Translations under genes and position numbers: made by a program
Notes under the pieces: generated by a model
Seen by the model: only the letters and a program-made list of their open reading frames with translations
Told to the model about the DNA's origin: nothing
Databases searched by the model: none
In this document: one piece after another, positions 14,720 through 56,210 of the stretch
How the letters are laid out: each line of letters opens with the position of its first letter
Position numbering within the stretch: position 1 is the first letter of the stretch
Origin: Halobacillus halophilus DSM 2266
Lineage (GTDB): Bacteria > Bacillota > Bacilli > Bacillales > Halobacillaceae
NCBI RefSeq assembly: GCF_000284515.1
Contig: NC_017668.1
Span: 1,860,001-1,924,000 of the forward strand
Length of the DNA stretch: 64,000 bases
Direction: 5' to 3'

Positions 14720-14845
14720 GGCCCTGCACGACGCAGGGTCGTTCGACGTTCCCACAGGACGTGGCGGTTTTAGTCGAACATGCTTTTATGGACCTATTTA
14801 TCTCGAAACTGAGTCTATATAGTATCGGGAGCTTATCTGTAAAAT
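14720..14845 (+). repeat. Dispersed mosaic repeat, copy R1 (left end degraded)
   Basis: The 517-bp gap between spoVE and divIB contains one truncated copy of the repeat family. It starts in the double-hairpin cassette (CCCTGC-n5-GCAGGG, then a stem ending GTCGAAC with a CCAC-n5-GTGG core, about 14721-14780), ends in the inverted-repeat end TCTCGAAACTGAGTCTA (14801-14817) and has the shared tail GGGAGCTTATCTGTAAAAT (14827-14845). The remainder of the gap holds the spoVE terminator, an AT-rich stretch with nothing recognised, and the divIB promoter. Confidence 0.75.
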
Positions 14846-15018
14846 CTACACTCAAATCTAACAGGTCTATTTCTATAATTTTATTGTGAAACTCGTGGAA
14901 AACGGATGACGAGAAGCTGTAATTCTGACATACTAGTCAATGAAAGCGGATAAATGAGAAAATAGGAGAAAATATTATTAAACTAGTTTAACTCACGTAA
15001 TCCGTTAGCGAAAATTTG

Positions 15019-15027
15019 TGATATAAT
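15019..15027 (+). promoter_or_regulatory. Extended -10 promoter for divIB
   Basis: TGATATAAT (TGn plus TATAAT) 114 nt upstream of the divIB start, in AT-rich DNA; the -35 region is weak. A separate promoter is expected because a terminator and a repeat lie between spoVE and divIB. Confidence 0.5.
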
Positions 15028-15141
15028 GGGAGTCATTAGATGAAGAAACCCCTTCATTGAATTAAGTAATGGTAAATCATTCTTTCATACAGCTTAATGC
15101 AGCATCGAAAGGGTGTCTAGCAGTAAGGAGAAATGCCCGTT

Positions 15142-16200
15142 ATGGAAGAGAGAAAAGTCGTTTCCATAGAAGATCGCATACCTAAGTTGAAGCAGACAAG
15201 AAGGAAAAAAGCAAACAGAAGACTGATTCTTTATTTGATGATTCTCTTTATACTTATTGCGGTTGTGATTTATTTACAGTCACCGCTGAGTAATGTAGGT
15301 AATATAGAAGTCCAGGGGGAAAGGCATGTAACTGCTGATGAAATAAAAGAACTGGCTAATATAACCACAGAGACTAATTATTGGAAAGTAGATACTGATT
15401 CTATAACAAATAATGTTGAATCTCATAAAGAAATTAAGAGTGTGAATGTGAATCGAGATTTTCCGAATACTGTTCAGATTCAAGTAGAAGAAGCAGAACG
15501 GATCGGATACGTGCAAACGAACGGTGAATTCTCTGCCATTCTTGAAAATGGAACTAAACTAGAAGCCGCTTCTTCACTTCCTGGAGGAGATGCGCCGATT
15601 CTGGCCGGCTTTTCAAAACAGACTTATCTTGAAGAAATGTCCAAAGAGTTAAAGGAATTACCTCAGAGTGTAACAAATTTAATTTCCGAAATTCATTGGG
15701 AGCCTAAAGAAGACAACCCTTATCAAATTAGGCTGTATATGAACGATGGTTTTCAGGTACTTGCTTCTATCCGTAATTTCTCTAATAAAATGACCATCTA
15801 TCCATCCATTGTGGCTCAATTGGAAGAAGGCGCTGAAGGGATTATTCATATCGATGTAGGTGCTTATTTTGAAGAATATGCCGGCGCGGGGGAAGAAGGA
15901 AATACGGAAGGTGAAGTCCAAGCCGAGAGCCCGGATCAGGTCGATGAACCAATCTCTGAATTTGACGCAAATAATGACCCGGAAGGTAATCCGGAAGCAG
16001 CACCAGAATCTGAAACAAATATCATTCCTCAGGCAAATTCGGAGTTAACCCCTCAACCTGAAACAAATGAGGATTCCGAGCCTGATAGGGAACACACTCC
16101 AGCCTCTGAACAGGAGGGCACTGAGCAAAGCGGAAGTGTAGAAGATAGTGATGGATCTGATTCTACAGACGATTCCAGCTCGGAAGAATCCGGACAGTAA
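15142..16200 (+). CDS. divIB: Cell division protein DivIB (FtsQ) with long acidic tail
   Basis: A 352-residue bitopic protein: basic cytoplasmic N-terminus, one membrane segment (about residues 27-46), POTRA domain starting VGNIEVQGERHVTADEI, then the beta domain ending near YFEEY (about 245). DivIB stabilises FtsL/DivIC at the septum. B. subtilis DivIB is 263 residues; here about 107 extra residues follow, rich in Glu, Asp, Ser, Pro and Asn with one Arg and no Lys. TAAGGAG at 15124-15130 is 11 nt from ATG 15142 but only 2 nt from ATG 15133, so 15142 is preferred by spacing and by similarity (MEERKVVSIEDRIPK). Confidence 0.92.
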   Translation: MEERKVVSIEDRIPKLKQTRRKKANRRLILYLMILFILIAVVIYLQSPLSNVGNIEVQGERHVTADEIKELANITTETNYWKVDTDSITNNVESHKEIKSVNVNRDFPNTVQIQVEEAERIGYVQTNGEFSAILENGTKLEAASSLPGGDAPILAGFSKQTYLEEMSKELKELPQSVTNLISEIHWEPKEDNPYQIRLYMNDGFQVLASIRNFSNKMTIYPSIVAQLEEGAEGIIHIDVGAYFEEYAGAGEEGNTEGEVQAESPDQVDEPISEFDANNDPEGNPEAAPESETNIIPQANSELTPQPETNEDSEPDREHTPASEQEGTEQSGSVEDSDGSDSTDDSSSEESGQ

Positions 16201-16503
16201 CCTTAGACAATTGATAAGGATATTGGAAAAGTTAAAAACGTTTCGACGGCAGCAGAGTCAATTCATGTAAATTCAGCGAATGTTCCTTGACTTAAATTTG
16301 AAAAAATGCGATGAATGAAAAGGATATTCTTTAGACTTTGTGGAAATCAACTAAAAGAATAGCTTTAAAAATGATCTAAAGAAAAGCCGGAGACTCAAAA
16401 TGTATCATTTGATTTACGAAATGGTTGCAAAGATTGTTTTTTTATCGTAAATTCGATATGCTTTGAACTACTCAAATGGCTTGTAATAGGAGGTGCGCCA
16501 CTG
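16201..16503 (+). promoter_or_regulatory. ftsAZ leader with candidate SigH promoter
   Basis: This 303-bp gene-free stretch takes the place of ylxW-ylxX-sbp of B. subtilis. It contains AAAGGATAT (16319-16327), a full match to the SigH -35 consensus RNAGGAWWW, and 12 nt later GTGGAAATC (16340-16348), a 7 of 9 match to the -10. The B. subtilis ftsAZ operon also has a SigH promoter raising FtsZ at sporulation onset. A TTGACT at 16287 has no good -10. No other feature is seen apart from the ftsA ribosome site (AGGAGGT, about 16488). Confidence 0.35.
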
Positions 16504-17793
16504 GTGAAACAAGAAGAAATATTAGTTAGCTTAGATATAGGAACGAGTCGTATAAAGGTAATTATTGGAGAGATCTCAAATGATACCCTCAATATTATTG
16601 GCGTAGGCTCAGCGAAATCAAACGGTATGAAAAAAGGGGCAATTGTTGATATAGATCAGACGGTCCATTCTATACGTTCAGCAGTAGAACAGGCAGAACG
16701 TATGGTAGATATGAAAATTGACCGTGTAGTGGTAGGTATTAACGGTAATCATATTCAGCTGCAGTCCTGCCATGGAGTGGTTGCTGTCTCAAGTGAAAGC
16801 AGAGAGATTGGTAATGAAGACATTACAAGGGTGATTGACGCAGCCCAGGTGCTATCTATACCTCCAGAAAGAGAAATTATTGATGTCATACCCCGCCAGT
16901 TTATCGTGGATGGACAGGATGAAATCACGGATCCTCGCGGAATGATTGGCGTTCGATTGGAAATGGAAGGTACGATTATTACGTGTGCTAAAACCGTTTT
17001 ACATAACACTTTGAAGTGTGTTGAGCGTGCGGGGCTTGAGGTACTGGATGTTTGTCTTCAGCCTCTTGCTTCAGGGACAGTATCCTTGTCCAGCGACGAA
17101 ACCAATCTTGGTGTTGCGCTACTGGATGTGGGCGGTGGATCTACCACAATTTCTGTTTTTGAAGATGGTCACCTTAAAGGAACCAGCTTAATTCCATTCG
17201 GTGGAGATAACATTACAAAAGACTTGTCGATCGGATTAAGAACATCGACAGAAGAAGCAGAGAAAGTGAAAGTCGAGCATGGGCATGCATTTTTTGATGA
17301 TGCCAATGAACAGGAAACATTTTCTGTCACAATCATTGGAAGTAATCGCGAACAGGCATTCAATCAATTGCAATTATCTGATATGATTGAAGCTAGACTA
17401 GAAGAAATATTTGTCTTAGCAGCTGAAGAGCTACAGCGAATGGGAGTAAGAGAATTGCCGGGAGGTTTTGTACTGACTGGCGGAACGATGAACATGCCTG
17501 GCATACTGGAACTTGCCCAGGACGTATTCCATTCGAATGTTCGATTGGCCATCCCGGATTATATCGGTGTAAGAGAACCACAGTTCACAAGTGGAGTGGG
17601 TATCTTGCAATTCGCCTATCGTAATGCGAAAATACAAGGAAAAGAGATTTTCCCATCTGTAACTGAAGAATTTGCACAACCAGCGCCTAAAAAACAGAAA
17701 CGTGCTGCGAAACAGCAAAACGAAGAAAATGAAAAGCCCGAGAAGAAGAAAGAATCAGGCTTGTCCAACTTATTAAAGTATTTCTTTGATTAA
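16504..17793 (+). CDS. ftsA: Cell division protein FtsA
   Basis: A 429-residue actin-like protein that tethers FtsZ filaments to the membrane. The N-terminal LVSLDIGTSRIKVIIGE is the phosphate-1 motif, LDVGGGSTTISVF (about residues 202-214) is phosphate-2, and GGFVLTGGTMNMPG (about 320-333) is the adenosine motif. The Lys/Glu-rich C-terminal linker ends in an amphipathic, hydrophobic tip (LSNLLKYFFD) expected to be the membrane-targeting helix. GTG start at 16504 follows a strong AGGAGGT site. It is followed 75 nt later by ftsZ. Confidence 0.96.
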   Translation: MKQEEILVSLDIGTSRIKVIIGEISNDTLNIIGVGSAKSNGMKKGAIVDIDQTVHSIRSAVEQAERMVDMKIDRVVVGINGNHIQLQSCHGVVAVSSESREIGNEDITRVIDAAQVLSIPPEREIIDVIPRQFIVDGQDEITDPRGMIGVRLEMEGTIITCAKTVLHNTLKCVERAGLEVLDVCLQPLASGTVSLSSDETNLGVALLDVGGGSTTISVFEDGHLKGTSLIPFGGDNITKDLSIGLRTSTEEAEKVKVEHGHAFFDDANEQETFSVTIIGSNREQAFNQLQLSDMIEARLEEIFVLAAEELQRMGVRELPGGFVLTGGTMNMPGILELAQDVFHSNVRLAIPDYIGVREPQFTSGVGILQFAYRNAKIQGKEIFPSVTEEFAQPAPKKQKRAAKQQNEENEKPEKKKESGLSNLLKYFFD

Positions 17794-17868
17794 TGACAGG
17801 TCAAGGTCGGTCAGCGGACGGACACAAACAATAAATCTTGTAATCTCGTGTATTAGGAGGAACGGAAG

Positions 17869-19023
17869 ATGTTAGATTTTGATACAAGCATGGACCAACT
17901 GGCAACCATTAAAGTTATCGGAGTAGGCGGCGGTGGCAGTAATGCCGTCAACCGTATGATTGAGCATGGAGTGCAAGGCGTAGAATTCATCGCCGTAAAC
18001 ACAGATGCTCAGGCACTGAATTTATCTAAAGCAGAAGTTAAAATGCAAATTGGCGGTAAACTGACTCGAGGTCTTGGTGCGGGTGCAAACCCGGAAGTAG
18101 GCCGCAAAGCTGCTGAAGAAAGTAAGGAACAGTTAGAAGAAGCTCTTCAAGGAGCAGATATGGTTTTCGTTACAGCCGGAATGGGCGGCGGAACAGGAAC
18201 AGGTGCTGCACCGGTCATTGCACAAGTTGCTAAAGAACTTGGTGCGCTTACCGTAGGTGTTGTAACACGTCCGTTTACATTTGAAGGACGTAAACGCTCT
18301 ACACAAGCTGCAGGCGGAATCGAAGGGTTGAAAGGAAGCGTAGATACGCTGATCGTCATTCCAAATGACCGTCTTCTTGAAATTGTTGATAAAAATACAC
18401 CGATGCTCGAAGCATTCCGCGAAGCAGACAATGTTCTTCGTCAAGGTGTACAAGGTATATCAGACTTAATTGCTGTTCCAGGACTGATCAACGTTGACTT
18501 CGCAGACGTTAAGACCATCATGGTAGACAAAGGATCAGCCTTGATGGGCATTGGAATAGCTACGGGTGAAAGCAGAGCCGCAGAAGCTGCTAAGAAAGCC
18601 ATATCTTCACCATTGCTTGAAACATCCATTGATGGGGCACATGGCGTACTAATGAATATTAGTGGCGGAACCAACTTGAGCCTGTATGAAGTTCAGGAAG
18701 CAGCTGATATCGTTACATCAGCAGCGGATCAGGAAGTTAATGTTATCTTTGGTTCAGTTATCAATGAAAACCTCAAAGATGAAATTGTAGTTACGGTTAT
18801 TGCCACTGGTTTTGATGAGACACAAATTGCTCAAGGGCAAAAGAAACGTCCATCTACAAGCCAGCCAAGTCCGAGCCAGCAAAAACCTAGTCAGCCTGAG
18901 CGCAGCGTACGTGAGGAACAGCCTCGTCGTGAAAGCCCTCAGCCGCAAAATCAAAAGCCAAACCAGGAAGAAGACACCCTGGATATCCCGACATTCCTAA
19001 GAAACCGGAATCGTCGCCGTTAA
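17869..19023 (+). CDS. ftsZ: Cell division GTPase FtsZ
   Basis: A 384-residue tubulin homologue that forms the Z ring. [13 protein letters not shown] (about residues 18-30) and the tubulin signature [13 protein letters not shown] (about 104-116) bind GTP; the T7-loop segment ADVKTIM contributes the catalytic acid. A Gln/Pro/Ser-rich linker (about residues 315-368) precedes the conserved C-terminal peptide [13 protein letters not shown], which contacts FtsA, SepF and other partners. A strong terminator follows, closing the ftsAZ transcript. Confidence 0.98.
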
Positions 19024-19032
19024 AATGAACCT

Positions 19033-19073
19033 AAAGCCCGCTGCACCTCACAAGGTGCAGCGGGCTTTTTTCG
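19033..19073 (+). terminator. Terminator after ftsZ
   Basis: A 16-bp GC-rich stem (AAAGCCCGCTGCACCT with its complement) around a short CACA loop, followed by six T residues. Confidence 0.92.
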
Positions 19074-19120
19074 TGGGATATGTATAACTTTATTGCTGAT
19101 TTTATATGCTTGTTATTCAA

Positions 19121-19309
19121 TTAAAGGGCCGGATTGTTGAAGACTCAGTTTCGAGATATTGTCTGGAGAAAGGGGCTCCAGGGAACGGCTCGCTTACCGC
19201 GACCCTGCGTCGTGCAGGGCCGGAAAGCGAAATCGTCCCCCGAAGTACCTTCCGCTCAACATATATCTCGAAATCAAGTCTTCCAGAAAAGGGAGCTTAT
19301 CTGTAAAAT
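19121..19309 (+). repeat. Dispersed mosaic repeat, copy R2 (both ends present)
   Basis: In the 568-bp ftsZ-spoIIGA gap. The left end AGACTCAGTTTCGAGATAT (19141-19159) and right end ATATCTCGAAATCAAGTCT (19263-19281) form an inverted repeat matching at all but three central positions. The element carries the CCCTGC-n5-GCAGGG hairpin, inverted relative to R4, and ends in the tail GGGAGCTTATCTGTAAAAT (19291-19309). No open frame with coding character was seen. The rest of the gap (19310-19540) is AT-rich with nothing assigned before the spoIIGA promoter. Confidence 0.8.
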
Positions 19310-19541
19310 CAATTCAAGGTTTAATCAATCAAAAAATAACCCTTCGCGATAACTATTTGATTTCATTCTGATTGATCAATTATTGATACTTTTGACAAGA
19401 CTCCTGAAAAACGATATTTGATCATGCAGAAGAGAAGGATTGGTGGGTAAGATATGATAAGAGTAACGAAGGTTAACTAAAATATGCTGAGATTATAGGC
19501 CGTTACATGATGTTACAAAACTTGCTAGCTTGCTATTCATA

Positions 19542-19576
19542 TTGTGACAGACTTTTTAGGCGGACAGGCTTATAAT
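19542..19576 (+). promoter_or_regulatory. Long-spacer spoIIG-type promoter
   Basis: TATAAT at 19571-19576 is preceded by TTGTGACA (19542-19549); any -35 reading of it gives a spacer of 21-23 bp instead of 17. The B. subtilis spoIIG promoter is known for a 22-bp spacer overcome by Spo0A~P. A matching Spo0A box cannot be named with confidence here. The predicted start point is only about 9 nt before the first spoIIGA ATG. Confidence 0.5.
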
Positions 19577-19591
19577 TTCTTATAACAATAG

Positions 19592-20518
19592 ATGAAGGGA
19601 GCGGGGGTCATCTATCTTGATGCTGTCTGGTTGCTCAATCTTTTAATGGATGCCATGATCCTCTATCTTACTCAGGGTGTGGTAAGGGCAAGATCTTCTA
19701 AAATCCGTATGTTTTGCGCCGCTTTTGCAGCCTCCAGCATTGTGCCTATATCTATCTTTATGCCGGATCTCTGGTTGACGAGCACCCTTGGGAAGCTGGT
19801 CTTTTCATTACTTATCATCGGAATTGCCTTTTCTTTTACCTCACTTCGTGCTTTTATTCTACAGTTGGTCAGCTTTTATTTTATTACATTTTCCATCGGG
19901 GGGAGTATGCTTGGCGTCCATTTTTTCCTAGCCACGGAAATAAGTATTCAAGGAGGATCGATTGTAACATTTTCAGGGGGATATGGTGATCCTGTCAGCT
20001 GGATGTTTGTATGTATTGGGTTTCCTTGTTCATTTTTCTTCACAAAGTGGCGGATGGAGCAAGTAAGCGTCCACCAAATGAAGCTTGAGAACATTTATGA
20101 TGTAAAAATCACTTGGAATGGGAAAGAAGTCCTTTGCCGTGGAATGGTCGACAGTGGTAATCAATTAATTGATCCAATCAGCAGAAAAATGGTTTTCCTG
20201 GCTGACCATACGGTGATGGGCCAGTTTCTTGAACCGGAAGTACTGGAAAAACTTCAAGTAGATCAAATCCTGACTTCAATGGAAGAATTGCCCTCAGACA
20301 TTCAATCGTCTGTTCGCTTAGTACCTTTTCAAGCCGCAGGTTCTAAAGGTCAACTGCTTGTTACGGTGTTAGTGGATCAAATATCAATTGTAACTCCACA
20401 AGGAAATTTAGAAATGAAGCAGCCATTGGTCGGTGTGCAGCATCATGACCTCACACATGATCGTCTTTATCAAATGCTGATACATCCCCACATAATGGTT
20501 AAAGGAAAAACTGCCTAA
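19592..20518 (+). CDS. spoIIGA: Sporulation sigma-E processing peptidase SpoIIGA
   Basis: A 308-residue membrane-embedded aspartic protease that removes the pro-sequence of SigE after engulfment-stage signalling from SpoIIR. Five hydrophobic segments fill the N-terminal half. The catalytic VDSGN triplet context has Asp187 (GMVDSGNQLIDP). The C-terminal half is the cytoplasmic protease domain. Start is uncertain: ATG 19592 has no ribosome site, while GGGAG (19597-19601) lies after it and would fit initiation near the GTC/ATC codons at 19607-19610, where homologues begin (M-K-I-Y-L-D). No standard start exists there. It is followed 15 nt later by sigE. Confidence 0.9.
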   Translation: MKGAGVIYLDAVWLLNLLMDAMILYLTQGVVRARSSKIRMFCAAFAASSIVPISIFMPDLWLTSTLGKLVFSLLIIGIAFSFTSLRAFILQLVSFYFITFSIGGSMLGVHFFLATEISIQGGSIVTFSGGYGDPVSWMFVCIGFPCSFFFTKWRMEQVSVHQMKLENIYDVKITWNGKEVLCRGMVDSGNQLIDPISRKMVFLADHTVMGQFLEPEVLEKLQVDQILTSMEELPSDIQSSVRLVPFQAAGSKGQLLVTVLVDQISIVTPQGNLEMKQPLVGVQHHDLTHDRLYQMLIHPHIMVKGKTA

Positions 20519-20533
20519 GGGAAGGGGAATGAC

Positions 20534-21253
20534 ATGGTCAAATGGTTTTTTAAATTAAGGCTGTGGTTTTATCGTATTTTAATTAAGCTTGGGATTAAGC
20601 AAGACGAAATTTATTATATTGGAGGTAGTGAAGCTTTACCGCCTCCACTTTCAAGAGAAGAAGAAAAAGAACTGCTTGAACTTCTGCCTAAAGGAGATAA
20701 AGCAGCACGGGCTATGTTGATTGAACGGAATTTGCGGCTTGTAGTCTATATAGCTCGAAAATTTGAAAACACGGGGTTAAATATAGAGGATCTAATCAGT
20801 ATTGGTACCATTGGCTTAATTAAAGCCGTCAATACATTCGATCCTGAGAAAAAAATAAAACTCGCCACTTATGCTTCCCGCTGTATCGAAAATGAGATTC
20901 TTATGCACCTGAGAAAGAGTAATAAATTGAAAACAGAGGTTTCATTTGATGAACCGCTAAACGTTGACTGGGATGGAAACGAGCTATTATTATCGGATAT
21001 TTTAGGCACGGAAGAAGATTTGACGACCAAAGGTATTGAGAAGAAAATAGACAAGAAATTACTAATGTCGGCATTGGATCAATTAAATGATCGTGAAAAG
21101 CAGATTATGGAACTAAGGTTTGGTTTAATCGGAAAAAAAGAAAAAACCCAAAAAGATGTAGCGGATATGATGGGGATCTCCCAATCCTATATATCAAGGC
21201 TTGAGAAAAAGATTATTCGCCGCTTACAGCGTGAATTCGATAAAATGGTCTAA
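20534..21253 (+). CDS. sigE: RNA polymerase sigma-E factor precursor (pro-SigE)
   Basis: A 239-residue sigma-70 family factor controlling early mother-cell genes. The first about 29 residues (hydrophobic and basic, [16 protein letters not shown]) form the membrane-binding pro-sequence cut by SpoIIGA near YYIGGSE. Region 2 contains [13 protein letters not shown] and [19 protein letters not shown]; region 4 has the helix-turn-helix [20 protein letters not shown]. It is the second gene of the spoIIG operon, with an AAGGGGA ribosome site before ATG 20534. Confidence 0.97.
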
Positions 21254-21272
21254 TAGAACTAATAATACAGAT

Positions 21273-21300
21273 GCATAATTTTTCCTCCCAAGGAGATACT
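21273..21300 (+). promoter_or_regulatory. SigF-type promoter for sigG
   Basis: GCATA at 21273-21277 fits the SigF -35 GYATA; after 14 nt, GGAGATACT (21292-21300) fits every fixed position of the -10 GGNNANANT. B. subtilis sigG is transcribed from such a forespore promoter. Predicted start about 21307, downstream of the 5' arm of the ribosome-site hairpin. Confidence 0.7.
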
Positions 21301-21327
21301 GAGAACTGATTACAGCTTCTTGGGAGG
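21284..21327 (+). promoter_or_regulatory. RNA hairpin sequestering the sigG ribosome site
   Basis: CCTCCCAAGGAG (21284-21295) pairs with CTTCTTGGGAGG (21316-21327), 12 pairs with one G-U. The 3' arm is the sigG ribosome-binding site. Only transcripts reading through from spoIIG would contain the 5' arm, which overlaps the SigF -10. A comparable hairpin that limits sigG translation from read-through RNA is described in B. subtilis. Confidence 0.7.
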
Positions 21328-21334
21328 GTCTTAT

Positions 21335-22114
21335 TTGACACGACACAAAGTAGAAATATGCGGAGTAGATACATCCAAACTTCCAGTGCTGACCAATAAA
21401 GAAATGAAGGCCCTGTTTATACGTCTCCAAAGTGGTGAAACGGAAGCACGTGAGGAATTAGTCAATGGGAATCTTCGTTTAGTATTATCGGTTATTCAGC
21501 GCTTCAATAATCGCGGAGAATATGGTGATGATTTATTTCAGGTAGGCTGCATTGGATTAATGAAATCCATAGACAATTTTGATTTAAGCCATAATGTTAA
21601 ATTTTCTACTTATGCTGTACCTATGATTATCGGAGAAATACGCAGGTATTTACGGGATAATAATCCGATACGCGTTTCCAGGTCTTTAAGAGACACGGCT
21701 TATAAGGCGTTACAAATGAGAGAAAAGATGATTGGTGAAACCAATAAAGACCCTGCTCCTCATGAAATTGCTAAGAGGATGGGGGTTCCACCAGAAGATG
21801 TCGTATTTGCAATGGATGCCATCCAGGATCCAGTGTCGTTGTTTGAGCCAATTTACAACGATGGAGGAGATCCAATATTTGTGGTTGATCAATTAAAAGA
21901 TGACCGTGAAAAAGACTCCATCTGGTTAGACGAACTCTCTTTGCGCGAAGGTATGAAGAAATTGAATGATCGTGAAAAAATGATTCTGACGAAACGGTTC
22001 TTCCAAGGTAAAACTCAAATGGAAGTTGCTGAAGAAATCGGAATATCTCAAGCTCAAGTATCCCGATTAGAAAAAGCTGCTATTAAAGAAATGAATTCGT
22101 CTATGTTTCAATAA
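21335..22114 (+). CDS. sigG: RNA polymerase sigma-G factor
   Basis: A 259-residue forespore sigma factor driving late forespore genes. It starts at TTG 21335, giving MTRHKVEICGVDTSKLPVL, aligned with the start of B. subtilis SigG (260 residues) and about 7 nt after the GGGAGGG site. Region 2 (LRLVLSVIQRFNNRGEYGDDLFQVGCIGLMKSIDNFDLS) and the region 4 helix-turn-helix (TQMEVAEEIGISQAQVSRLE) are well conserved. The weak TTG start combined with the hairpin over the ribosome site suggests tight translational control. Confidence 0.97.
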   Translation: MTRHKVEICGVDTSKLPVLTNKEMKALFIRLQSGETEAREELVNGNLRLVLSVIQRFNNRGEYGDDLFQVGCIGLMKSIDNFDLSHNVKFSTYAVPMIIGEIRRYLRDNNPIRVSRSLRDTAYKALQMREKMIGETNKDPAPHEIAKRMGVPPEDVVFAMDAIQDPVSLFEPIYNDGGDPIFVVDQLKDDREKDSIWLDELSLREGMKKLNDREKMILTKRFFQGKTQMEVAEEIGISQAQVSRLEKAAIKEMNSSMFQ

Positions 22115-22146
22115 GCATTAGTACCCTATTTGATCATAAGTGTTCT

Positions 22147-22178
22147 GGCTGTCGAGAATGTCTCGACAGTCTTTTTTT
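22147..22178 (+). terminator. Terminator after sigG
   Basis: CTGTCGAGA pairs with TCTCGACAG across a 3-nt loop, extended by two more pairs, then seven T residues. Confidence 0.85.
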
Positions 22179-22353
22179 GTCCTTCGAAGAGGTATTCTTC
22201 ACTCGATAAGGCAGTAAAAATGCCCTCAGTGAAAATTATAGTTTATCTTTAAAAAGTTAGAACAACTCTTCAGTAGCTAGAAAATTTCAGTTCGTTATTT
22301 CTCAAGGGTCTGCTAAGCTCTCCTATTGATATTACAGACAAACTCTCGATACT

Positions 22354-22650
22354 GGAAGGCTCAGTTTCAAGTTAAATGGCTCCGTTACGTTTAAAGGGAG
22401 GAGGGCTGGAGGGGAAATAACTCGCCTTCCTGCGGCCCTACACGATGTAGGGTCGATCGACGATGCCACAGGACGTGGCGACTTTAGTCGATCCTCCTTT
22501 TACCAGGAGCCTCCTCAGTTGTTTCACTCCTTGTGGGGTCTCGCCTAGCTCCTTCTCCCATGGGAGTCTCGCTATTTCCTCTCCAACTCAGTAATTTCTT
22601 GTGAATGGACCCTGCTAATAGGAAAAATGGGAAACCTGAAATCGTCTTAA
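22354..22650 (+). repeat. Dispersed mosaic repeat, copy R3
   Basis: First of two copies in the 1,024-bp sigG-ylmC gap. The left end GAAGGCTCAGTTTCAAGTTA (22355-22374) is a variant of the family terminus; the right end (about 22633-22650) is weaker. It contains the double-hairpin cassette in a diverged version (about 22438-22496, CCCTAC-n5-GTAGGG). The flanking modules are the reverse complement of those in R6, which lacks the cassette. No convincing coding sequence lies in the gap outside the two repeats. Confidence 0.72.
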
Positions 22651-22740
22651 ATGCTTCTATAGTGGCGTTTATCTCCCTGGACAGACTCGGAATTTAACGT
22701 TGATCATAGTCATTCTCCCTCATATAAAGGTATATACGTA

Positions 22741-22998
22741 GAGGATTTTGAACGCTCCTTGATCGCAAAGGGGTGGAAGGGAGCGGCGAATACTCCTGCG
22801 GGATGAACATGATCGGTGAGATCCCGGAAAGCGAAGCCTGAGGAAGCTCACCACAAGGGATGTTCGACTAAGACCGCCACGTCCTGTGGCAACGTCGAAC
22901 GACCCTGCGTCGTGCAGGGCCGCGGTAAGTGAGTCGTTCCCTGGAGCCACTTTCTCCAGACAATATCTCGAAACTGAGTCTTGAACTATCCGGCCATC
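22741..22998 (-). repeat. Dispersed mosaic repeat, copy R4 (inverted)
   Basis: Second copy in the sigG-ylmC gap, in opposite orientation. Read on the minus strand from 22998 it begins GGCCGGATAGTTCAAGACTC, the same as R2 (19128 onward) with few differences for about 85 bp. The double-hairpin cassette follows (about 22863-22922), then a module ending in CCTGCAGGAGT-like and CTCACCGATCATGTTCATCC sequence shared with R5. Confidence 0.78.
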
Positions 22999-23138
22999 TA
23001 GCGTAATAAGCTTCATTTAAAAAATTAACAATAACCTTTAACCTAGTCTTTCTGAAAAAACATTTACGCCTGCTTTGTCTTTTATTTTCACAAGTGTTGC
23101 GACATTGAAGCATATAGTGAAGGAAAGGGGGATGAATG

Positions 23139-23414: not shown

Positions 23415-23437
23415 TACAAGAAATAAGATGAATAATG

Positions 23438-23446
23438 TGTTAAAAT
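23438..23446 (+). promoter_or_regulatory. Extended -10 promoter before pgeF
   Basis: TGTTAAAAT (TGn plus TAAAAT) 23 nt upstream of the pgeF start; no strong -35. It would let the ylm-sepF-divIVA group be expressed vegetatively. Confidence 0.4.
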
Positions 23447-23468
23447 GAAGGGAAATTGAGGTGGTAAC

Positions 23469-24269: not shown

Positions 24270-24287
24270 TGGTGGAAGGAGAGAAAG

Positions 24288-24956: not shown

Positions 24957-24980
24957 CTAATAAAACTTGAGGTGATCAGC

Positions 24981-25436: not shown

Positions 25437-25439
25437 GTC

Positions 25440-25712: not shown

Positions 25713-25716
25713 AAAT

Positions 25717-28781: not shown

Positions 28782-28799
28782 CATGGATAGAATAAAAAA

Positions 28800-29463
<664 letters not shown>

Positions 29464-48748: not shown

Positions 48749-48765
48749 GAAAGGAGACTTGTTTG

Positions 48766-49713
48766 ATGACACGCATTGCATTTATGGGGACGCCTGATTT
48801 TGCTGTGCCGGTTTTAGACCGGCTGATGGAAGATCAATATAATGTAGTTCTCGCTGTAACTCAACCAGACAGGCCGAAAGGCAGAAAGAAGGTTATGACC
48901 CCGCCGCCTGTTAAAGTCGCAGCTGAAAAGCACGGCATTCCGGTTTTCCAGCCGGAAAAGATTAAGAATGAATATGAGGAAGTATTAAAATATGAGCCTG
49001 ACCTCATTATTACCGCGGCTTTCGGACAGATCCTTACAGAAGATCTGCTTCAGGCACCTGAATACGGCTGTATTAACGTTCACGCCTCGTTATTGCCTGA
49101 ATTCCGCGGAGGCGCTCCGATTCATTACGCCATTCTTGAAGGGAAAAAGGAAACCGGTGTCACCATTATGTATATGGTGAAGAAGCTTGATGCAGGCGAT
49201 ATGCTGGCTAAAACGGTTGTTCCTATTGACGACGACGATCACGTGGGCACCCTGCATGATAAACTTTCCGTAGCCGGAGCTGATCTGCTCATGCAGACAC
49301 TTCCTTCTTTACTGGAAGGTTCCATCACACCACAGCCGCAGGATCATTCCCTGGCCACTTTTGCCGGAAATATTAAAAGAGAACAAGAGCTTATTAATTG
49401 GTACAAGGATCAACAGGAAGTTTATAATCACGTGCGTGGACTTCATCCCTGGCCGGTAGCTTATACTTTGTGGAATAGAAAGCCGCTGAAAGTCTGGTGG
49501 CTCGAGAAAGTGAACGGTACGTTTAATCAGGAACCAGGAACCGTTGTGGAAATGGCAGAAGACGGTTTCCTTGTGCAGACAGGTGATGGCAAGGCCGTTA
49601 AAATTGTGGACCTGCAGCCTTCTGGTAAAAAACGAATGGACGGTCGCTCCTTTATTAACGGAACCGGTCAGTCACTAACTGAAGGCGAACGTCTGGGGGA
49701 GCACGATGAGTAA
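48766..49713 (+). CDS. fmt: Methionyl-tRNA formyltransferase
   Basis: A 315-residue enzyme that formylates initiator Met-tRNA with 10-formyl-THF. The catalytic core has [38 protein letters not shown] (about residues 105-128, with the catalytic Asn/His) and [13 protein letters not shown]. The C-terminal OB-like tRNA-binding domain starts about 205. ATG 48766 is chosen by similarity ([12 protein letters not shown]); a TTG at 48763 is also in frame. The expected partner def is not adjacent. Confidence 0.95.
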
Positions 49714-51058
49714 ATATGTTTTGAGGGAAACGGCGCTTGACTTATTAACTCGAATTGGAGAGCAGGGCGGATTCAGTCACGTTCTGTTAGATCGCGAGAT
49801 TACGAAACAGGAGCTGTCCCGCCAGGACGGGGCTCTTCTTACAGAAATTGTGTATGGAACTCTTCAGCGAAGAGACTTGATTGATTATTATGTTCAGCCC
49901 TTTGTGGCAAAGCAGAAGAAAATCAAACCATGGGTACGCTGGCTTTTATATATGTCTGTCTATCAAATGGAGTTTCTTGAGCGCGTGCCAGACCACGCCA
50001 TTATTCATGAAGCCGTTGAAATTTCAAAGAGACGCGGACACAAAGGGATTTCTTCTTTTACAAATGGTGTACTGAGAAGCGTTCAGCGCAAAGGCCTGCG
50101 CAGTCTGGATGAGATTGAGGAGCCAGTGGAACGCTTAGCGATTGAAACGAGTCATCCTGCATGGCTGGTGAAGCGTTGGATGGATCAGTATGGCAGAAGC
50201 ATTACAGAAGAAATGTGCCGCGCTAACATGCAGCATCTGCCTCTATCTGTTCGCGTGCAGCCGCTGCGGATTTCACGATTGGAAGCTATGGAGCAGTTAA
50301 GAGAAGATGGCTTCAAAGTGGAAGAAAGTCTGCTGTCGCCGCAAGGTATGGTAGTCAGTGAAGGACAGCTGCTGAAGCATTCATTGTTTACCGAGGGTAA
50401 AGTAACGATTCAGGATCAAAGTTCTATGCTTGTCGCTGAGATGATGGATCTTGAAAAAGGGATGACAATTCTTGATGCCTGCAGTGCCCCAGGGGGGAAA
50501 ACCACCCATATAGCTGAGAAAATGGAAGACGAGGGCGAAATTGTTGCGTATGATTTACATGTTAAAAAGGCTAAACTGGTAAATAAGAAAGCTGAACAGC
50601 TACAGTTAACGTCTATTCAGGCAAGTCAAGCTGATTCAAGAAATCTTGCTGATTTGCATGAAGCAGCTTCATTTGATCGGATTTTACTCGATGCCCCCTG
50701 TTCTGGCCTGGGGGTTCTTAGGGGTAAACCGGATATTAAGTATCACAAACAACTTGAAGACGTATTTTCACTTAGGAAGATACAGGATGAATTACTGGAT
50801 CGTGTTGCACCGCTTCTTAAAGAAGGTGGAAAACTGGTTTATAGTACATGCACAGTGGACCGCCACGAAAATGAAGAAGCTGTACAGCATTTTCTGAAAC
50901 AGCATCCTGAATTTACGGTCGATCACGAATTCTTCAATGATCTTCCTGAGGTCACGAAAGGTTCAAAAGGTCAAAGCGACTTTGGCCTTCAGATGTTTCC
51001 GCAGGATTTTGATACAGATGGATTCTTTTTGACGAGGCTAGTCAAACAATCAAAATAA
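49706..51058 (+). CDS. rsmB: 16S rRNA (cytosine(967)-C(5))-methyltransferase RsmB
   Basis: A 450-residue enzyme (SunL family) with an N-terminal NusB-like RNA-binding domain (about residues 1-140: [38 protein letters not shown]) and a C-terminal SAM methyltransferase domain. [17 protein letters not shown] binds SAM, and the two catalytic Cys are in [17 protein letters not shown] and [14 protein letters not shown]. It overlaps fmt by 8 nt. rlmN, next in B. subtilis, is absent; a terminator follows instead. Confidence 0.95.
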
Positions 51059-51098
51059 TTGGAGGGGTCAATCATGGCCCCCTCCTTCCAATTTTTTG
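51057..51098 (+). terminator. Terminator after rsmB
   Basis: AATTGGAGGGG pairs with CCCCTCC and CCAATT with a small bulge, then a six-T run. It separates the coaBC-rsmB unit from prpC. Confidence 0.8.
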
Positions 51099-51187
51099 CT
51101 TTTCGTGCGCAAGGGTCAGCGGTAAGTATCGAAGGAAGTTTGCCGTTACGATTGTGCCGCAGAGCTTACCGAAAATGAGGTGAGTCC

Positions 51188-51946
51188 ATGAATGGCTTTT
51201 ATCTTACAGATCAAGGCAGGGTAAGAAATCATAATGAAGATGCCGGCGGCGTATTTAAGAATGACTCCGGTCAAATCTTAGCGGTAGTTGCCGACGGAAT
51301 GGGAGGACACCGTGCAGGAGATGTAGCAAGTCAGAAAGCAGCTTCTCATCTACATAGCAAATGGCAGGAAGCAGAGAAGCTTCATACGCCTGACGAATCT
51401 CAATCATGGCTAAAGTTTGCCATCCAGTCAGTAAATAACGAAATTATATCTTATGCTAATCAGAATGAGGACTGTCATGGTATGGGAACGACTGTAGTCG
51501 CGGCCATTTGTACAGAAGACTTTATAACGATTGCCCATATTGGAGACAGTCGCTGCTACTATGCTAATGCGTATGGATTTAAACAGCTCACGGAAGATCA
51601 TTCTCTCGTTAATGAACTTGTCCGATCTGGACAAATCACGGAGGAACAGGCTGAACACCACCCACGTAAAAACGTACTTCTTAAAGCACTGGGGACGGAG
51701 TATGACATTAAAGTGGATACAAAAACACTTGAATTTGAGCCTGGAGACAGACTGCTCCTTTGCACCGATGGACTCACGAACAAAGTAAGTGATGAAGAAC
51801 TGTCTAAGCTCGCTTCTTTTGAAGGAGAATGGGCGGAGTTCTGTCAGGAGCTTGTGGATCTTGCTAATGATCGCGGGGGAGAAGACAACATTACGATTGC
51901 CGTTGTGCATTATGACAGCACAGATGAGAAAAGAGGTGCGGATTAA
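51188..51946 (+). CDS. prpC: PP2C-type serine/threonine protein phosphatase PrpC
   Basis: A 252-residue Mn-dependent phosphatase opposing the kinase PrkC. Metal-binding motifs DQGRVRNHNEDAG (about residues 8-20), VVADGMGGHRAGDVAS (about 34-49), IAHIGDSRCYYA, LLCTDGLTN and GGEDNITIAVV are all present, so it should be active. Its stop overlaps the prkC start (TAATG). The 129-bp leader contains an inverted CGGTAAG/CTTACCG pair (51120-51171) of unknown role. Confidence 0.95.
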   Translation: MNGFYLTDQGRVRNHNEDAGGVFKNDSGQILAVVADGMGGHRAGDVASQKAASHLHSKWQEAEKLHTPDESQSWLKFAIQSVNNEIISYANQNEDCHGMGTTVVAAICTEDFITIAHIGDSRCYYANAYGFKQLTEDHSLVNELVRSGQITEEQAEHHPRKNVLLKALGTEYDIKVDTKTLEFEPGDRLLLCTDGLTNKVSDEELSKLASFEGEWAEFCQELVDLANDRGGEDNITIAVVHYDSTDEKRGAD

Positions 51947-53982
51947 TGCTTAACGACCGTCTCCTTAATGACCGTTACCAAATTCAGGATATGATAGGCG
52001 GCGGTGGAATGGCCAACGTCTATTTGGCTCACGATGTCATTTTAGACAGGGAAGTTGCGATTAAGATTCTTCGTTTAGAGCATGAAAACGATGAGGAATT
52101 TATTGCGCGATTTCATAGAGAGGCTCAGTCTGCTACCAGTTTAGCTCATTCGAATATAGTCAATATCTATGATGTAGGAGAAGAAGAAGATATTTACTAT
52201 ATGGTCATGGAATACGTAGACGGCATGACGCTTAAGCAGTATATCCAAAAGCATAGTCCGATCGACGTCGCGGAAGCAGTCGATATCATGAGACAAATTA
52301 CATCAGCCATTTCCCATGCCCATGATAATGAAATTATTCATCGCGATATAAAGCCTCAGAACATTTTGATTGATCATTACGGGCATGTAAAGGTAACCGA
52401 TTTTGGGATTGCTATGGCTTTAAGCGCCACATCTCTGACCCAGACCAACTCAGTACTTGGATCGGTGCATTACCTATCACCTGAGCAGGCTCGCGGGGGA
52501 ATGGCCACAAAAAAATCAGACGTGTACTCGCTCGGCATTGTATTTTTTGAACTATTAACCGGCAGGCTTCCTTTTTCGGGGGAATCGCCGGTATCAATAG
52601 CTCTAAAGCACCTCCAGCATGAGACGCCTTCGCTTCGAAGGTGGATTAACAATCTGCCGCAAAGTGTGGAAAATATTGTATTGAAAGCAACGGCTAAAGA
52701 TCCTTTTCACCGTTATGAATCAGTCGTGGAGATGGAGGAGGATTTAGAAACAAGTCTGGAGCCCGACCGTGTAAATGAGCCGGCGTTCGAAACACCTGCT
52801 GAAGAAGAAGATGAGAAAACAAAGGCTATCCCTGTCATTACGGATGACACATACGGAGCCCAGGAAGAAGAGAATACAATCGTTCATAGTCAGACCAGTC
52901 CAACCTCTCCCATTCGTGAGCGGAAGCCGTCTAAAGATGAGGCAGCACAGTCATCGCTCCACAAAGAGAAAAAGAAAAAAGGAGTGCGGTTCTGGCTGAT
53001 TCCCATTTTAATCTTACTACTTAGCGGAGTCGCTGCCCTGTTTCTAATCCCGGGTATTATTCAGCCTGCCAACGTAGAAATGGTTGATGTATCAGGCATG
53101 GAGTATGAAGAAGCTTATAGCCAGCTAAGAGAGATGAATCTGGAAGTGAAGAGGGAAACTGAATATTCCGACGAGGTTTCTGAAGGGATGGTTATTCATA
53201 CAAAACCAGAACCAGGTAAGATTATTAAGGAAGAATCTGAAGTGGTGGTATATGCAAGTCTGGGGAAAGAGAGAGCCGAGTTTAAGGATTATACGGGACA
53301 GGATTATGAAAAAGTGGAGCAGGAACTTAAAGATAAAGGTTATGAGACCATCATTCCATTTAAAGAAAGCAGTCAGCAGCCTGAAGGTGAGATTACAGCT
53401 CAACTTTCGCCTCAGGTAGGAGAAGAAGTTATTCCGGATGAAACGCGAGTGATTTTCCGGGTCAGTAATGGACCTCCGAGAGTTAATCTTGGCGTCTTAG
53501 AAGGAATGACTGAGGAAGAGGCAACGAAATATTTGAACGAACGAAACCTTAAAGTTGACGTAACTGAGAATTATTCTGATCAGGTGACGCAAGGTGAAGT
53601 GATTTCTCAGAATCCAGAAGCCGCAACCCAGGTTAAAGAAGGATCTACGGTTTCCATTACGATTTCATTAGGACCTAAAGAAGAACCTCCAAGGACAGAA
53701 ACCATTCAGATAGAGGTTCCCTTTGCACCTGAAACAGAACAGGAATCAACAGAAGACTCCGGTGCAGGATCTGAACCGTCTGAAGGCACACAAGCGACTG
53801 AACAAAAAGTACTGATTTATATTGAAGATATGGACCATAAACTATCCGATGTATTTAAAGAGGAAACCATTACAGAGGATACCGTGTTTGAAATTCCATT
53901 AACCATTCAGCCAGGAACCGAAGCATCCTATAAAGTACAAAGAGGTGACGAGGTCATTGAAGAAGGAAGTGTTCCGTATTAA
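51946..53982 (+). CDS. prkC: Serine/threonine protein kinase PrkC with PASTA domains
   Basis: A 678-residue membrane kinase that senses muropeptides or lipid II and controls germination and cell-wall homeostasis. The kinase domain spans about residues 10-270, with GGGGMANVYLA, ATP lysine Lys40, catalytic HRDIKPQN and DFGIAMA. An acidic juxtamembrane linker leads to one membrane helix (about 347-371, FWLIPILILLLSGVAALFLI). Three PASTA domains follow (about 374-440, 441-510 and 511-578), then a Glu/Thr-rich linker and a C-terminal beta domain (about 615-678). Confidence 0.95.
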   Translation: MLNDRLLNDRYQIQDMIGGGGMANVYLAHDVILDREVAIKILRLEHENDEEFIARFHREAQSATSLAHSNIVNIYDVGEEEDIYYMVMEYVDGMTLKQYIQKHSPIDVAEAVDIMRQITSAISHAHDNEIIHRDIKPQNILIDHYGHVKVTDFGIAMALSATSLTQTNSVLGSVHYLSPEQARGGMATKKSDVYSLGIVFFELLTGRLPFSGESPVSIALKHLQHETPSLRRWINNLPQSVENIVLKATAKDPFHRYESVVEMEEDLETSLEPDRVNEPAFETPAEEEDEKTKAIPVITDDTYGAQEEENTIVHSQTSPTSPIRERKPSKDEAAQSSLHKEKKKKGVRFWLIPILILLLSGVAALFLIPGIIQPANVEMVDVSGMEYEEAYSQLREMNLEVKRETEYSDEVSEGMVIHTKPEPGKIIKEESEVVVYASLGKERAEFKDYTGQDYEKVEQELKDKGYETIIPFKESSQQPEGEITAQLSPQVGEEVIPDETRVIFRVSNGPPRVNLGVLEGMTEEEATKYLNERNLKVDVTENYSDQVTQGEVISQNPEAATQVKEGSTVSITISLGPKEEPPRTETIQIEVPFAPETEQESTEDSGAGSEPSEGTQATEQKVLIYIEDMDHKLSDVFKEETITEDTVFEIPLTIQPGTEASYKVQRGDEVIEEGSVPY

Positions 53983-53994
53983 GAAGGTGAAAGT

Positions 53995-54876
53995 ATGCCG
54001 GTAGGGAAAATTATTAAAGCGTTGAGCGGTTTTTATTATGTTCTTTACGAAGGACATATTTATCAATGCAGAGGCCGTGGAAACTTCAGGAAAAAGAAAG
54101 TGAGTCCGCTCGTAGGAGATACCGTAGAATTTAAAGCCGAAAAACAGGATGAAGGGTATATATTATCCATTGACAAGCGAAAGAATGAGTTTGTCAGACC
54201 TCCAATTGCTAATGTAGATCAGGCATTAATTGTAACATCCGCCGCCAATCCAGAGTTCAACGCTTTGCTATTGGATCGCTTTCTTGTGCTAGTGGAAGCA
54301 AAACGGATTGAACCTTTCGTTGTGATTTCCAAGATGGATCAGTTAGATGAAGGAAGAGCAAATGATATGAAAGTCTATCAACAGATGTATGAGTCGGTTG
54401 GTTATCCCGTTATCCTTTCTGCCGTGAACGATGCTGAATCCATGGAACAGATCAGGGCGCACCTGGCTGGCCGCACTACTGTCATTGCCGGTCAGTCAGG
54501 CGTCGGGAAATCATCTCTTTTGAATACGATTGATCCAAGGCTTTCAATTGACACAGACGAAATTTCTAAAAGCCTGGGACGCGGGAAGCATACCACGAGA
54601 CATGTGGAATTATATGAAATATCTGGTGGTCTTGTAGCTGATACACCCGGATTTAGTTCACTGGAATTCGGTGATTTGCAACTGGAACAATTACCTGAAT
54701 GTTTTCCGGAGTTTGTCCAAGTACAGGATGACTGCAAGTTTCGTGGGTGTCTGCACAATAAAGAGCCGAAATGTGCCGTAAAACACGGGGTAGAAGAAGG
54801 GGATATTTCCAAGCAGCGTTACGAACATTATTTGCAATTTCTAGAAGAAATCCAAAATAGAAAGCCGAGGTATTAA
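53995..54876 (+). CDS. rsgA: Ribosome small subunit-dependent GTPase RsgA (CpgA)
   Basis: A 293-residue circularly permuted GTPase that checks late 30S maturation. Order: N-terminal OB domain (GKIIKALSGFYYV, PLVGDTVEF), then the permuted G motifs G4 VISKMD, G1 AGQSGVGKSSLLN (about residues 166-178), G2 in the GRGKHTTRHVE switch and G3 DTPGFSSLE. The zinc site is CKFRGCLHNKEPKCAV near the end. CpgA is a PrkC substrate in B. subtilis, consistent with its position. Confidence 0.95.
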   Translation: MPVGKIIKALSGFYYVLYEGHIYQCRGRGNFRKKKVSPLVGDTVEFKAEKQDEGYILSIDKRKNEFVRPPIANVDQALIVTSAANPEFNALLLDRFLVLVEAKRIEPFVVISKMDQLDEGRANDMKVYQQMYESVGYPVILSAVNDAESMEQIRAHLAGRTTVIAGQSGVGKSSLLNTIDPRLSIDTDEISKSLGRGKHTTRHVELYEISGGLVADTPGFSSLEFGDLQLEQLPECFPEFVQVQDDCKFRGCLHNKEPKCAVKHGVEEGDISKQRYEHYLQFLEEIQNRKPRY

Positions 54877-55541
54877 TGATGACAAAGATTGCTCCTTCCA
54901 TTCTGGCTTCCGATTTTTCTAAATTGGGAGAAGAAATTAAAGATGTTGAACAAGGAGGTGCTGACTATATTCACGTGGACGTGATGGATGGTCATTTCGT
55001 ACCTAATATTACGATTGGTCCTCTTATCGTAGATGCCATTCGTCCTGTGACCAGTCTGCCTCTTGATGTCCACTTAATGATTGAAAATCCTGATCAATAT
55101 ATTGAGGCTTTTGCAAAAGCTGGGGCGGATATTATTACGGTTCATCAGGAAGCCTGTCCACATTTACATCGGACCCTTCAGCTAATTAAGAGCTTTGGGG
55201 TTAAGGCCGGGGTCGTGATTAATCCAGCTACACCCGCTGAAACGATTAAGCCTGTGCTCCAGGACGTGGACCTCGTGCTCCTTATGACGGTAAATCCTGG
55301 CTTCGGCGGGCAATCGTTTATAGAATCTGTCGTTCCAAAAATTCAGCAGGTGGCTGATTGGCGTGAAGAGCAGTCGCTTTCCTTTGAGATAGAAATTGAT
55401 GGCGGTGTAAAAGAGGAAACAGCCCCGATTTGCATTGAATCCGGTGCCGACGTACTTGTGGCCGGTAGTGCCATTTTTAAAGAAGAGGATCGCGGCCAAG
55501 CCATCGAAGTCATCCGTCATTCTGTAAAAGCTGAAAAATAA
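54876..55541 (+). CDS. rpe: Ribulose-phosphate 3-epimerase
   Basis: A 221-residue TIM-barrel enzyme interconverting ribulose 5-phosphate and xylulose 5-phosphate in the pentose phosphate pathway. APSILASDFSKLGEEI, HVDVMDGHFVPNITIGP (metal and catalytic residues), LDVHLMIENPDQYI, LMTVNPGFGGQSFIESVVPKI and the phosphate-binding VAGSAIF are all present. The start overlaps the rsgA stop (TAATG); ATG 54879 is an alternative. Confidence 0.96.
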   Translation: MMTKIAPSILASDFSKLGEEIKDVEQGGADYIHVDVMDGHFVPNITIGPLIVDAIRPVTSLPLDVHLMIENPDQYIEAFAKAGADIITVHQEACPHLHRTLQLIKSFGVKAGVVINPATPAETIKPVLQDVDLVLLMTVNPGFGGQSFIESVVPKIQQVADWREEQSLSFEIEIDGGVKEETAPICIESGADVLVAGSAIFKEEDRGQAIEVIRHSVKAEK

Positions 55542-55561
55542 TAAACTGAGCAGTTTTATGC

Positions 55562-55604
55562 GCCTGGAGGAGTGCCTGATGGCAGTTCCTTTAGGCTTTT
55601 TGTT
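55562..55604 (+). terminator. Terminator after rpe
   Basis: GCCT..AGGA..GCC pairs with GGC..TTCCT..AGGC around a TGAT loop, with small bulges, followed by five T residues. Confidence 0.6.
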
Positions 55605-55654
55605 TAGAAGACTCTTAATAAATGTTTTGTTGATTTTAAAAAGACTTATTAAGC

Positions 55655-55860
55655 TAAAGGGCCGGTTACTGTAAGACTCAGTTTCGAGATTTTTGATGAG
55701 ATTAAGGTCCTGCGGGGTACGATTTCGCTTTCCGCGGGCATGTGCTGAGCCTCCTCGAGCTAACGCTCTCCGGGGTCTCACCGATCATGTTCATCCCGCA
55801 GGAGTCTTCATCTTCCCCCTCCGGACCTTTTCAAATTAGAAGCTCGAAACCACTTCAACC
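55655..55860 (+). repeat. Dispersed mosaic repeat, copy R5
   Basis: First of two copies in the 715-bp rpe-thiN gap. It begins TAAAGGGCCGG like R2; the left end AGACTCAGTTTCGAGAT lies at 55674-55690 and a degenerate inverted end (GCTCGAAACCACTTCAAC) at 55842-55859. The internal module CTCACCGATCATGTTCATCC followed by CGCAGGAGT is shared with R4. The double-hairpin cassette is absent. Confidence 0.72.
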
Positions 55861-55979
55861 ATCACCTGCGTGGTGAGGAATTAGACCATATGGTTTGTAA
55901 CCTATTTGAGGACGTAACGATGCACAATAGCCTGTCAAACCATCATTTCATACAGATTGAGCAGGAGAATCTTCCTCTT

Positions 55980-56210
55980 TCCAGAAGGGTCTGTTCACAT
56001 GAAATGGTTGGGTTGGTGGGGAAATGGCGAGACTCCCATGGGAGAAGGAACTAGGTGAGATCCCGCAGGGAGTGAAACGAGCGAGGAAGCTCACCTAGTT
56101 CCCCCATAGGAAAGCGAGTTATTTCCCAACCAGCCCTCCTCCATTTAACGTAAAGGACCCAAGTTATCTTGAAATCAAGTCTTCAAGTAATGGGAGCTTT
56201 ACTCTAAAAC
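55980..56210 (+). repeat. Dispersed mosaic repeat, copy R6
   Basis: Second copy in the rpe-thiN gap. The right end TTATCTTGAAATCAAGTCTT (56164-56183) and tail GGGAGCTTTACTCTAAAAC (56192-56210) match R1 and R2; the left end is unclear. The internal modules are the reverse complement of R3 without the double-hairpin cassette. No coding sequence was seen in the gap. Confidence 0.7.

Follow-up and report, generated by a model that had tools for sequence, protein, structure and literature searches.

The repeats that fill intergenic gaps of the Halobacillus halophilus DSM 2266 chromosome are insertions of a small transposon that lacks an enzyme of its own; roughly a hundred sites of the genome carry it. 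In a neighbouring species the same insertions have been kept, with mostly different contents. We consider it somewhat probable that two layers are nested here, an IS1595-type MITE outside and, inside it, a cassette that is swapped by a Xer-like recombinase. The analysis started from a window of 64,000 nucleotides (contig NC_017668.1, positions 1,860,001 to 1,924,000) and was extended to the whole genome (G000, 4,170,008 bp) and to a close relative (G001); individual loci carry L-numbers.

The sequence-only reading of the window had listed six non-coding copies, R1 to R6, sharing a terminal motif. This 17-bp motif, AGACTCAGTTTCGAGAT, was confirmed at every place named, and it has 214 exact matches in the 4.17-Mb genome, against none for the reversed-pattern control. 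The two strands carry 112 and 102 of them, so that strand bias was rejected. When up to four mismatches per motif were accepted, 69 pairs of a forward and a reverse motif less than 1 kb apart were found in 40 genome stretches plus the window. They are 141–902 bp long, and 32 of the 69 measure 491–510 bp. A 16-bp form of the motif occurs in 39 of 81 searched genomes, 37 of these 39 being of the same family. Pairing reduced the six copies to four elements: R3 and R4, like R5 and R6, had been taken for adjacent pairs and each make up a single element, R1 has suffered a deletion and R2 is a short copy. The features of the window are as follows.

14669..14868, + strand: element 1 (R1); tips decayed, matches 19/30 and 21/30
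14826..14833, + strand: right-type core of element 1, CGGGAGCT, as read from the sequence
19076..19332, + strand: element 2 (R2), short copy; left tip 22/30, right tip 15/30 and decayed beyond safe recognition, so that the right end is approximate
19125..19132, + strand: left-type core of element 2, AGGGCCGG, flanked by inverted arms
19141..19157, + strand: left 17-bp motif of element 2
19265..19281, − strand: right 17-bp motif of element 2, three mismatches
19290..19297, + strand: right-type core of element 2, AGGGAGCT
22298..22305, no strand: left target duplication of element 3, TTTCTCAA, 7/8 match
22306..23048, − strand: element 3 (R3 and R4), reverse orientation; tips 21/30 and 24/30
22357–22373 and 22965–22981: motifs of element 3 (motif pair 22357–22981)
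22437..22503, − strand: Bacillaceae-1 RNA module of element 3, RF01690, 64.9 bits
22852..22918, + strand: second Bacillaceae-1 RNA module of element 3, RF01690, 68.4 bits
23049..23056, no strand: right target duplication of element 3, TTTCTGAA, 7/8 match
55610..56233, + strand: element 4 (R5 and R6), in the rpe/thiN gap; tips decayed, 20/30 and 17/30
55658..55665, + strand: left-type core of element 4, AGGGCCGG
55666..56190, + strand: cassette of element 4 (inner arm, motif, interior, motif, inner arm)
55674–56182: motif pair of element 4
56191..56198, + strand: right-type core of element 4, TGGGAGCT

In element 1 the left motif and part of the interior have been deleted, and the left arm abuts a Bacillaceae-1 module.

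Conservation extends past the 17-bp motif on its outer side, and the motif is not the terminus for which it had been taken. Comparison of filled and empty sites between G000 and G001 placed the true ends about 65 bp farther out, at GGCTCTGTTAAA..TGTTGATTTT; in the alignments of filled sites with G001 the left end begins with GGCTCTTTTAAAGTTTATTGTTGATTTT and the right end, on the complement, with GGCTCTGTTAAACTTCCGTGTTGATTTT. An 8-bp target stands once in the empty site of G001 and is doubled at the filled site (for example, TTCCTTTA and TTATAAAA). Among the 69 elements examined, both tips were recognizable with at most four mismatches in 27, the 42 with poorer tips being left out; the flanking 8-mers agree at 7 or more of 8 positions in 13 of these 27, as against 5 of 702 mismatched flank pairs. 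Within the window a duplication was found at element 3 only (7/8), and none at elements 1, 2 and 4, whose tips are decayed. The examined parts of G001 allowed 27 of 77 elements to be placed; 20 of these sites hold an element or part of one and 7 lack it; among the latter, L069 keeps remnants of the arms and L175 lies beside another element. The MITE structure of this outer layer and its past mobility are well supported. The flanking tail that the earlier reading had described holds as a position, that of a conserved, variable right arm, and fails as an exact sequence, GGGAGCTTATCTGTAAAA being found in two genome copies only, R1 and R2.

The same ends are found on IS1595 elements of other genomes. 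When 84,980 species genomes were scanned for the tip pattern, 102 stretches came up; of the 80 examined, 51 had a second tip together with a duplication matching at 7 or more of 8 positions, a figure from a script that selects such pairs and was run without a shuffled control. Two of these tip-bearing stretches, L246 and L237, enclose an open transposase frame of the IS1595 family (PF12762, and for L237 also NF033547), with the tips seen here and 8/8 duplications. Among the 30 loci recovered with the L237 protein, L325, L326, L327 and L329 have tips matching at 11–12 of 12 positions and 8/8 duplications. The L237 transposase has no match in G000 and only partial matches in 8 of 22 genomes of the genus, one of which (L349) is a deleted copy of 642 bp with an 8/8 duplication; two long copies of the repeat contain nested IS4-like and IS3-like genes. 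Since the ends (GGCTCTGTTAAA..TGTTGATWTT) and the 8-bp duplications equal those of transposase-bearing copies and the L237 transposase is unmatched in G000, the elements are best described as orphaned IS1595-type MITEs. Their interior sets them apart from the IS1595 family: it is an exchangeable cassette that bears no relation to the insertion sequence. The suggestion of a non-autonomous mobile element was thus supported by terminal inverted repeats, 8-bp duplications, empty sites, IS1595 elements with matching ends in other genomes and the lack of a match to their transposase here. The ISL3 family was rejected as a source: the ISL3 copies of this genome have GGCTCT ends and 8-bp duplications, but their subterminal continuation differs. 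One element used as a query had no match in phages, and one left arm had two short matches in plasmids.

None of 74 elements lies inside a gene. The gaps that bear them are tandem in 47 cases, convergent in 20 and divergent in 7, the corresponding numbers for neighbouring ORF pairs overall being 336, 80 and 58. The elements had been said to mark breaks of gene order, which found no support at the three gaps tested: the gene pairs rpe/thiN, ftsZ/spoIIGA and sigG/ylmC remain 75–1038 bp apart in the 21, 18 and 20 loci of the genus that have both genes, with or without an element. Traces of the motif (at most four mismatches) were detected at 10 of 21, 10 of 18 and 8 of 20 of these loci, respectively.

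A known RNA family had been named as an outcome that would undo the mobile-element reading, and it applies to some copies and not to the element as a whole. RF01690 (Bacillaceae-1 RNA) modules of 67 nucleotides lie at 14723–14789, 22437–22503 and 22852–22918, whereas in R2 and R5/R6 nothing scores above the gathering threshold. Bacillaceae-1 RNA is therefore an internal module of some copies. It was rejected as the element itself, standing without these ends at all eight loci tested in other genomes; a counter-example is L245, an IS1595-type element of Evansella that also contains RF01690. The family has been the subject of a 2022 paper in Gene, as the reference list of PMC10440787 records. 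A functional reading, in which the repeats are structured RNAs or regulatory elements and have been retained as Bacillaceae-1 RNA genes, seems very improbable to us. The modules themselves speak for it, as does the fold of element 4 as RNA (z = −6.4 over 20 shuffles), which we put down to the long inverted repeats and which is no proof of an RNA function. Against it stand the copies lacking RF01690, the replacement of interiors, the sites that are empty in G001 and the end arms, for which compensatory pairing was looked for and not found: as hairpins, inner and outer arms agree at 5.23 of 8 positions versus 5.01 in shuffled pairings (86/2000) on the left and at 4.84 versus 4.84 on the right.

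The inner layer begins at an 8-bp core that lies near each end between inverted arms, AGGGCCGG on the left and NGGGAGCT on the right, under arm and core rules drawn up post hoc from data already viewed. Thirty-one orthologous ends of G000 and G001 (17 left, 14 right) were compared with 5,000 shuffled pairings. Identity of the tips was 0.68 in orthologous against 0.40 in shuffled pairs on the left and 0.59 against 0.39 on the right, and that of the outer arms 0.85 against 0.64 and 0.77 against 0.61; no shuffle reached any of these values, nor that of the flanks, which also exceed shuffled pairing. From the core inwards the excess disappears: core and motif show none, the inner arms give 0.72 against 0.67 (601/5000) on the left and 0.63 against 0.64 (2929/5000) on the right, and the first 45 bp inside 0.37 against 0.36 (2130/5000) and 0.37 against 0.37 (2309/5000). 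Four of the 31 ends are still at least 60% alike inside, one of them 93%. The cassette boundary thus lies at the cores, and inside it the memory of the locus is lost on average.

These values bear on a plain, decayed MITE family in which orthologous interiors differ through independent insertions at the same spots. IS1595 MITEs with other interiors are indeed widespread in Bacillales, but the outer arms of orthologous ends are far above shuffled pairing, so the shell was inherited; independent insertion is already disfavoured, and we hold it to be highly unlikely.

Individual loci display the same replacement. In all six orthologous pairs first compared, the best match of the G001 interior is a different G000 copy; the flank alignments end no more than 80 bp from the motifs in three pairs and extend into part of the interior in two, and those of L171/L179 continue across it at 80%. 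The site of element 4 is filled in two close relatives as well, with another interior, the one in G001 being an orthologous pair. Two loci with differing outer arms have a whole cassette in common (L057, 15716–16212; L058, 18862–19358). The shuffled modules of the sequence-only reading were accordingly supported, with their boundary at the two cores. Empty docking sites, in which outer arms would be joined by one core, were sought in the stretches of the own genome examined, and none was convincing.

Near-identical interiors (at least 97% over 60 bp) link 24 pairs of left ends and 27 pairs of right ends, pairs that overlap in their members, and none of 6,806 left–right combinations. Orientation is kept in these recent exchanges. 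The tips of such ends hardly exceed background identity (0.45 and 0.41, against 0.42 and 0.39). Among interiors 85–93% identical there are 55 left–left, 134 right–right and 35 left–right pairs, and at 93–97% one left–right pair, so that orientation is not kept without exception. The inner arm is common to 10 of the 24 left and 11 of the 27 right pairs (background 16% and 11%). It should move together with its cassette and often does not, so many exchanges have their breakpoint inside the 17-bp motif, as is expected of homologous recombination.

Homologous recombination is the main rival to exchange by a recombinase, and within the motif it very likely contributes at the least. As a full account it would have the interiors of IS1595-type MITEs exchanged by RecA-dependent recombination or gene conversion, the cores being the edge of homology and the recombinase unrelated; we regard this as possible, though on the unlikely side. 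In its favour, 14 of the 24 left and 16 of the 27 right near-identical pairs do not have the inner arm in common, and the longest block that the copies share is the conserved 17-bp motif. Repeated rounds would wipe out locus memory up to the homology edge as observed at the 31 ends, and the 35 left–right pairs at 85–93% fit as well. However, the common block is only about 33 bp long at 65–95% identity, and most of the sites compared have had one interior replaced by another of unrelated sequence. Both ends carry the motif as the same inverted repeat, yet none of the 6,806 left–right pairs reaches 97%, which this account does not lead one to expect; it also leaves unexplained the arm–core–arm design of plasmid arrays near the recombinase.

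That design appears first in 58-bp palindromes (motif, arm, core, arm, motif), found at 10 places in 7 genomes. Their core is AGGGCAGG or its complement in 8 of the 10, one base off the left core AGGGCCGG, and AGGGCATG and AGGGCAGT in the others. The G000 palindrome lies about 100 bp past the stop codon of a 280-aa tyrosine recombinase gene (G000:C1:669136-669978), and is the only one of the ten with the recombinase in the stretch examined. The protein has a PF00589 catalytic domain (133 bits). Its nearest model is XerA, with 218 bits against a cut-off of 220, XerD and XerC both giving 205 (cut-offs 330 and 335); the nearest solved structure is XerD. The 19 kb around the gene hold eight site calls at six distinct places, where 1.4 were expected with a maximum of 6, and a looser scan put the count within the control range. 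Small genes lie between the sites, one encoding a GNAT acetyltransferase. No copy of the recombinase gene was present in the roughly 0.6 Mb of G001 examined, though G001 cassettes differ.

Among the matches listed, plasmid relatives with 54–63% identity come from Sporosarcina, Peribacillus, Cytobacillus, Niallia, Metabacillus and a plasmid labelled Arthrobacter citreus. On the last (L392, a 45-kb stretch), 44 sites were counted against a mean of 5.4 and a maximum of 9. The pattern CTAAnCTGCC occurs there 12 times (0.12 expected) and CTAAnGCA[CT]C 13 times (0.32); as read, the sites comprise 12 CTGCC-type and 11 GCATC-type cores, seven neighbouring pairs of which are 57–72 bp apart, with small genes between the sites in the layout of a gene-cassette array. 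L396 (12 sites against 1.9) and L394 (9 against 1.9) are also enriched, their cores often being NGGGNNNN, and one L394 core is AGGGAGCT, a right core found here. The excess is thus clear at three of six plasmid stretches. It is slight at L391 (5 against 2.6, maximum 4), where a looser scan fell within the control range, and L393 (3 against 1.3, maximum 5) and L395 (1 against 1.9) show no enrichment. The Niallia locus had no excess in the 5.8 kb scanned. In the loose arm scan, which is noisy in A/T-rich DNA, L384 (13 against 2.65, maximum 7) and L385 (14 against 4.55, maximum 11) stood above the control, and L056, L386, L387 and L388 were within its range; nor did pattern matches show a real excess at L386 and L387. 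At half of the plasmid stretches, then, site design near members of this recombinase family matches that of the cassettes here.

For the nested reading we propose the following mechanism. An IS1595-family transposase, now not found in the genome with the L237 query, would have recognized GGCTCTGTTAAA..TGTTGATTTT and placed the element in A/T-rich intergenic DNA, leaving the 8-bp duplications. The MITE would hold a cassette bordered by two different arm–core–arm sites, with AGGGCCGG on the left and NGGGAGCT on the right, both putative targets of the Xer-like tyrosine recombinase at G000:C1:669136-669978. This 280-aa enzyme may perform the exchange between loci, pairing left sites with each other and right sites with each other; the two cores being unlike, orientation would be retained, and like-with-like swaps would let a locus keep its shell while its content changes, which is the pattern observed.

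On the sequence evidence we tentatively extend this, with slightly less than even confidence, to a chromosome-wide Gram-positive system of cassette exchange. It would comprise a dedicated Xer-like recombinase, two incompatible site classes and gene cassettes in plasmid and chromosomal arrays; the same type of cassette, gene-free here, would have reached roughly a hundred intergenic docking loci by way of an IS1595 MITE and been swapped among them in fixed orientation. Integrons likewise combine a tyrosine recombinase gene with an adjacent array whose small genes are separated by recombination sites. The recombinase here, however, scores far below the integron-integrase model (TIGR02249, 95.6 against a cut-off of 265 bits), and the sites, as read, are simple inverted arms around a core, which attC sites are not. 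In the pdif modules of Acinetobacter plasmids, too, short Xer-type sites flank discrete modules, and the tested xrs cassettes formed no excisable modules, according to PMC11705084. Compared with these, the present system has a separate recombinase, which falls short of the XerC and XerD cut-offs and narrowly of that of XerA; its cassettes, many of them non-coding and spread over the chromosome, each have two core classes. Among the matches listed in a search of the open-access literature, none dealt with these repeats, with IS1595 MITEs in Bacillaceae or with cassette arrays there.

If the proposal holds, integrons and pdif modules would be joined by a site-specific cassette system of Bacillales in which two core classes preserve orientation and a MITE acts as the spreader of docking sites. 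The Rfam family Bacillaceae-1 would then be placed partly inside mobile cassettes, and there would be a testable reason why the intergenic repeats of one genus hold their place yet change their contents.

Two family elements carry insertion sequences nested between their motifs, where the genes comprise an IS4-like transposase of 455 aa and IS3-like ORFs:
L041 3765-5818, family element with nested insertion sequence
L043 4553-6489, family element with nested insertion sequence

The H. halophilus genome also holds three apparently recent copies of ISL3 (stretches L191-L193), with complete identity over at least 1383 bp and 8/8 duplications. Window positions 28798-28905 contain an ordinary PyrR binding site (Rfam RF00515, 58.6 bits).

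In relatives, the boundaries of several draft contigs fall within or close to family elements:
L122 and L123, contig start 0.5 kb ahead of spoIIGA
G023:C7:85 and G023:C14:85, contig boundary within or close to an element
G019:C6:54 and G019:C7:122, contig boundary within or close to an element
Assemblies of the genus may therefore misplace or lose element copies.

The stretch L392 (CP053689.1 105000-150000) is a plasmid gene-cassette array with two site classes. Its plasmid is labelled Arthrobacter citreus, a label that may be wrong, because the remaining close recombinase relatives, among the matches listed, come from Bacillales.

In the aligned elements, the final base of the right core seems, with exceptions, to vary together with the inner-arm allele:
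right core ending CCCA, inner-arm allele TTACTTGA
right core ending CCCT, inner-arm allele TTTCTGTA
right core ending CCCG, inner-arm allele TTTGTTGA
Judged from this association, the exchange point would lie before the final base of the right core.
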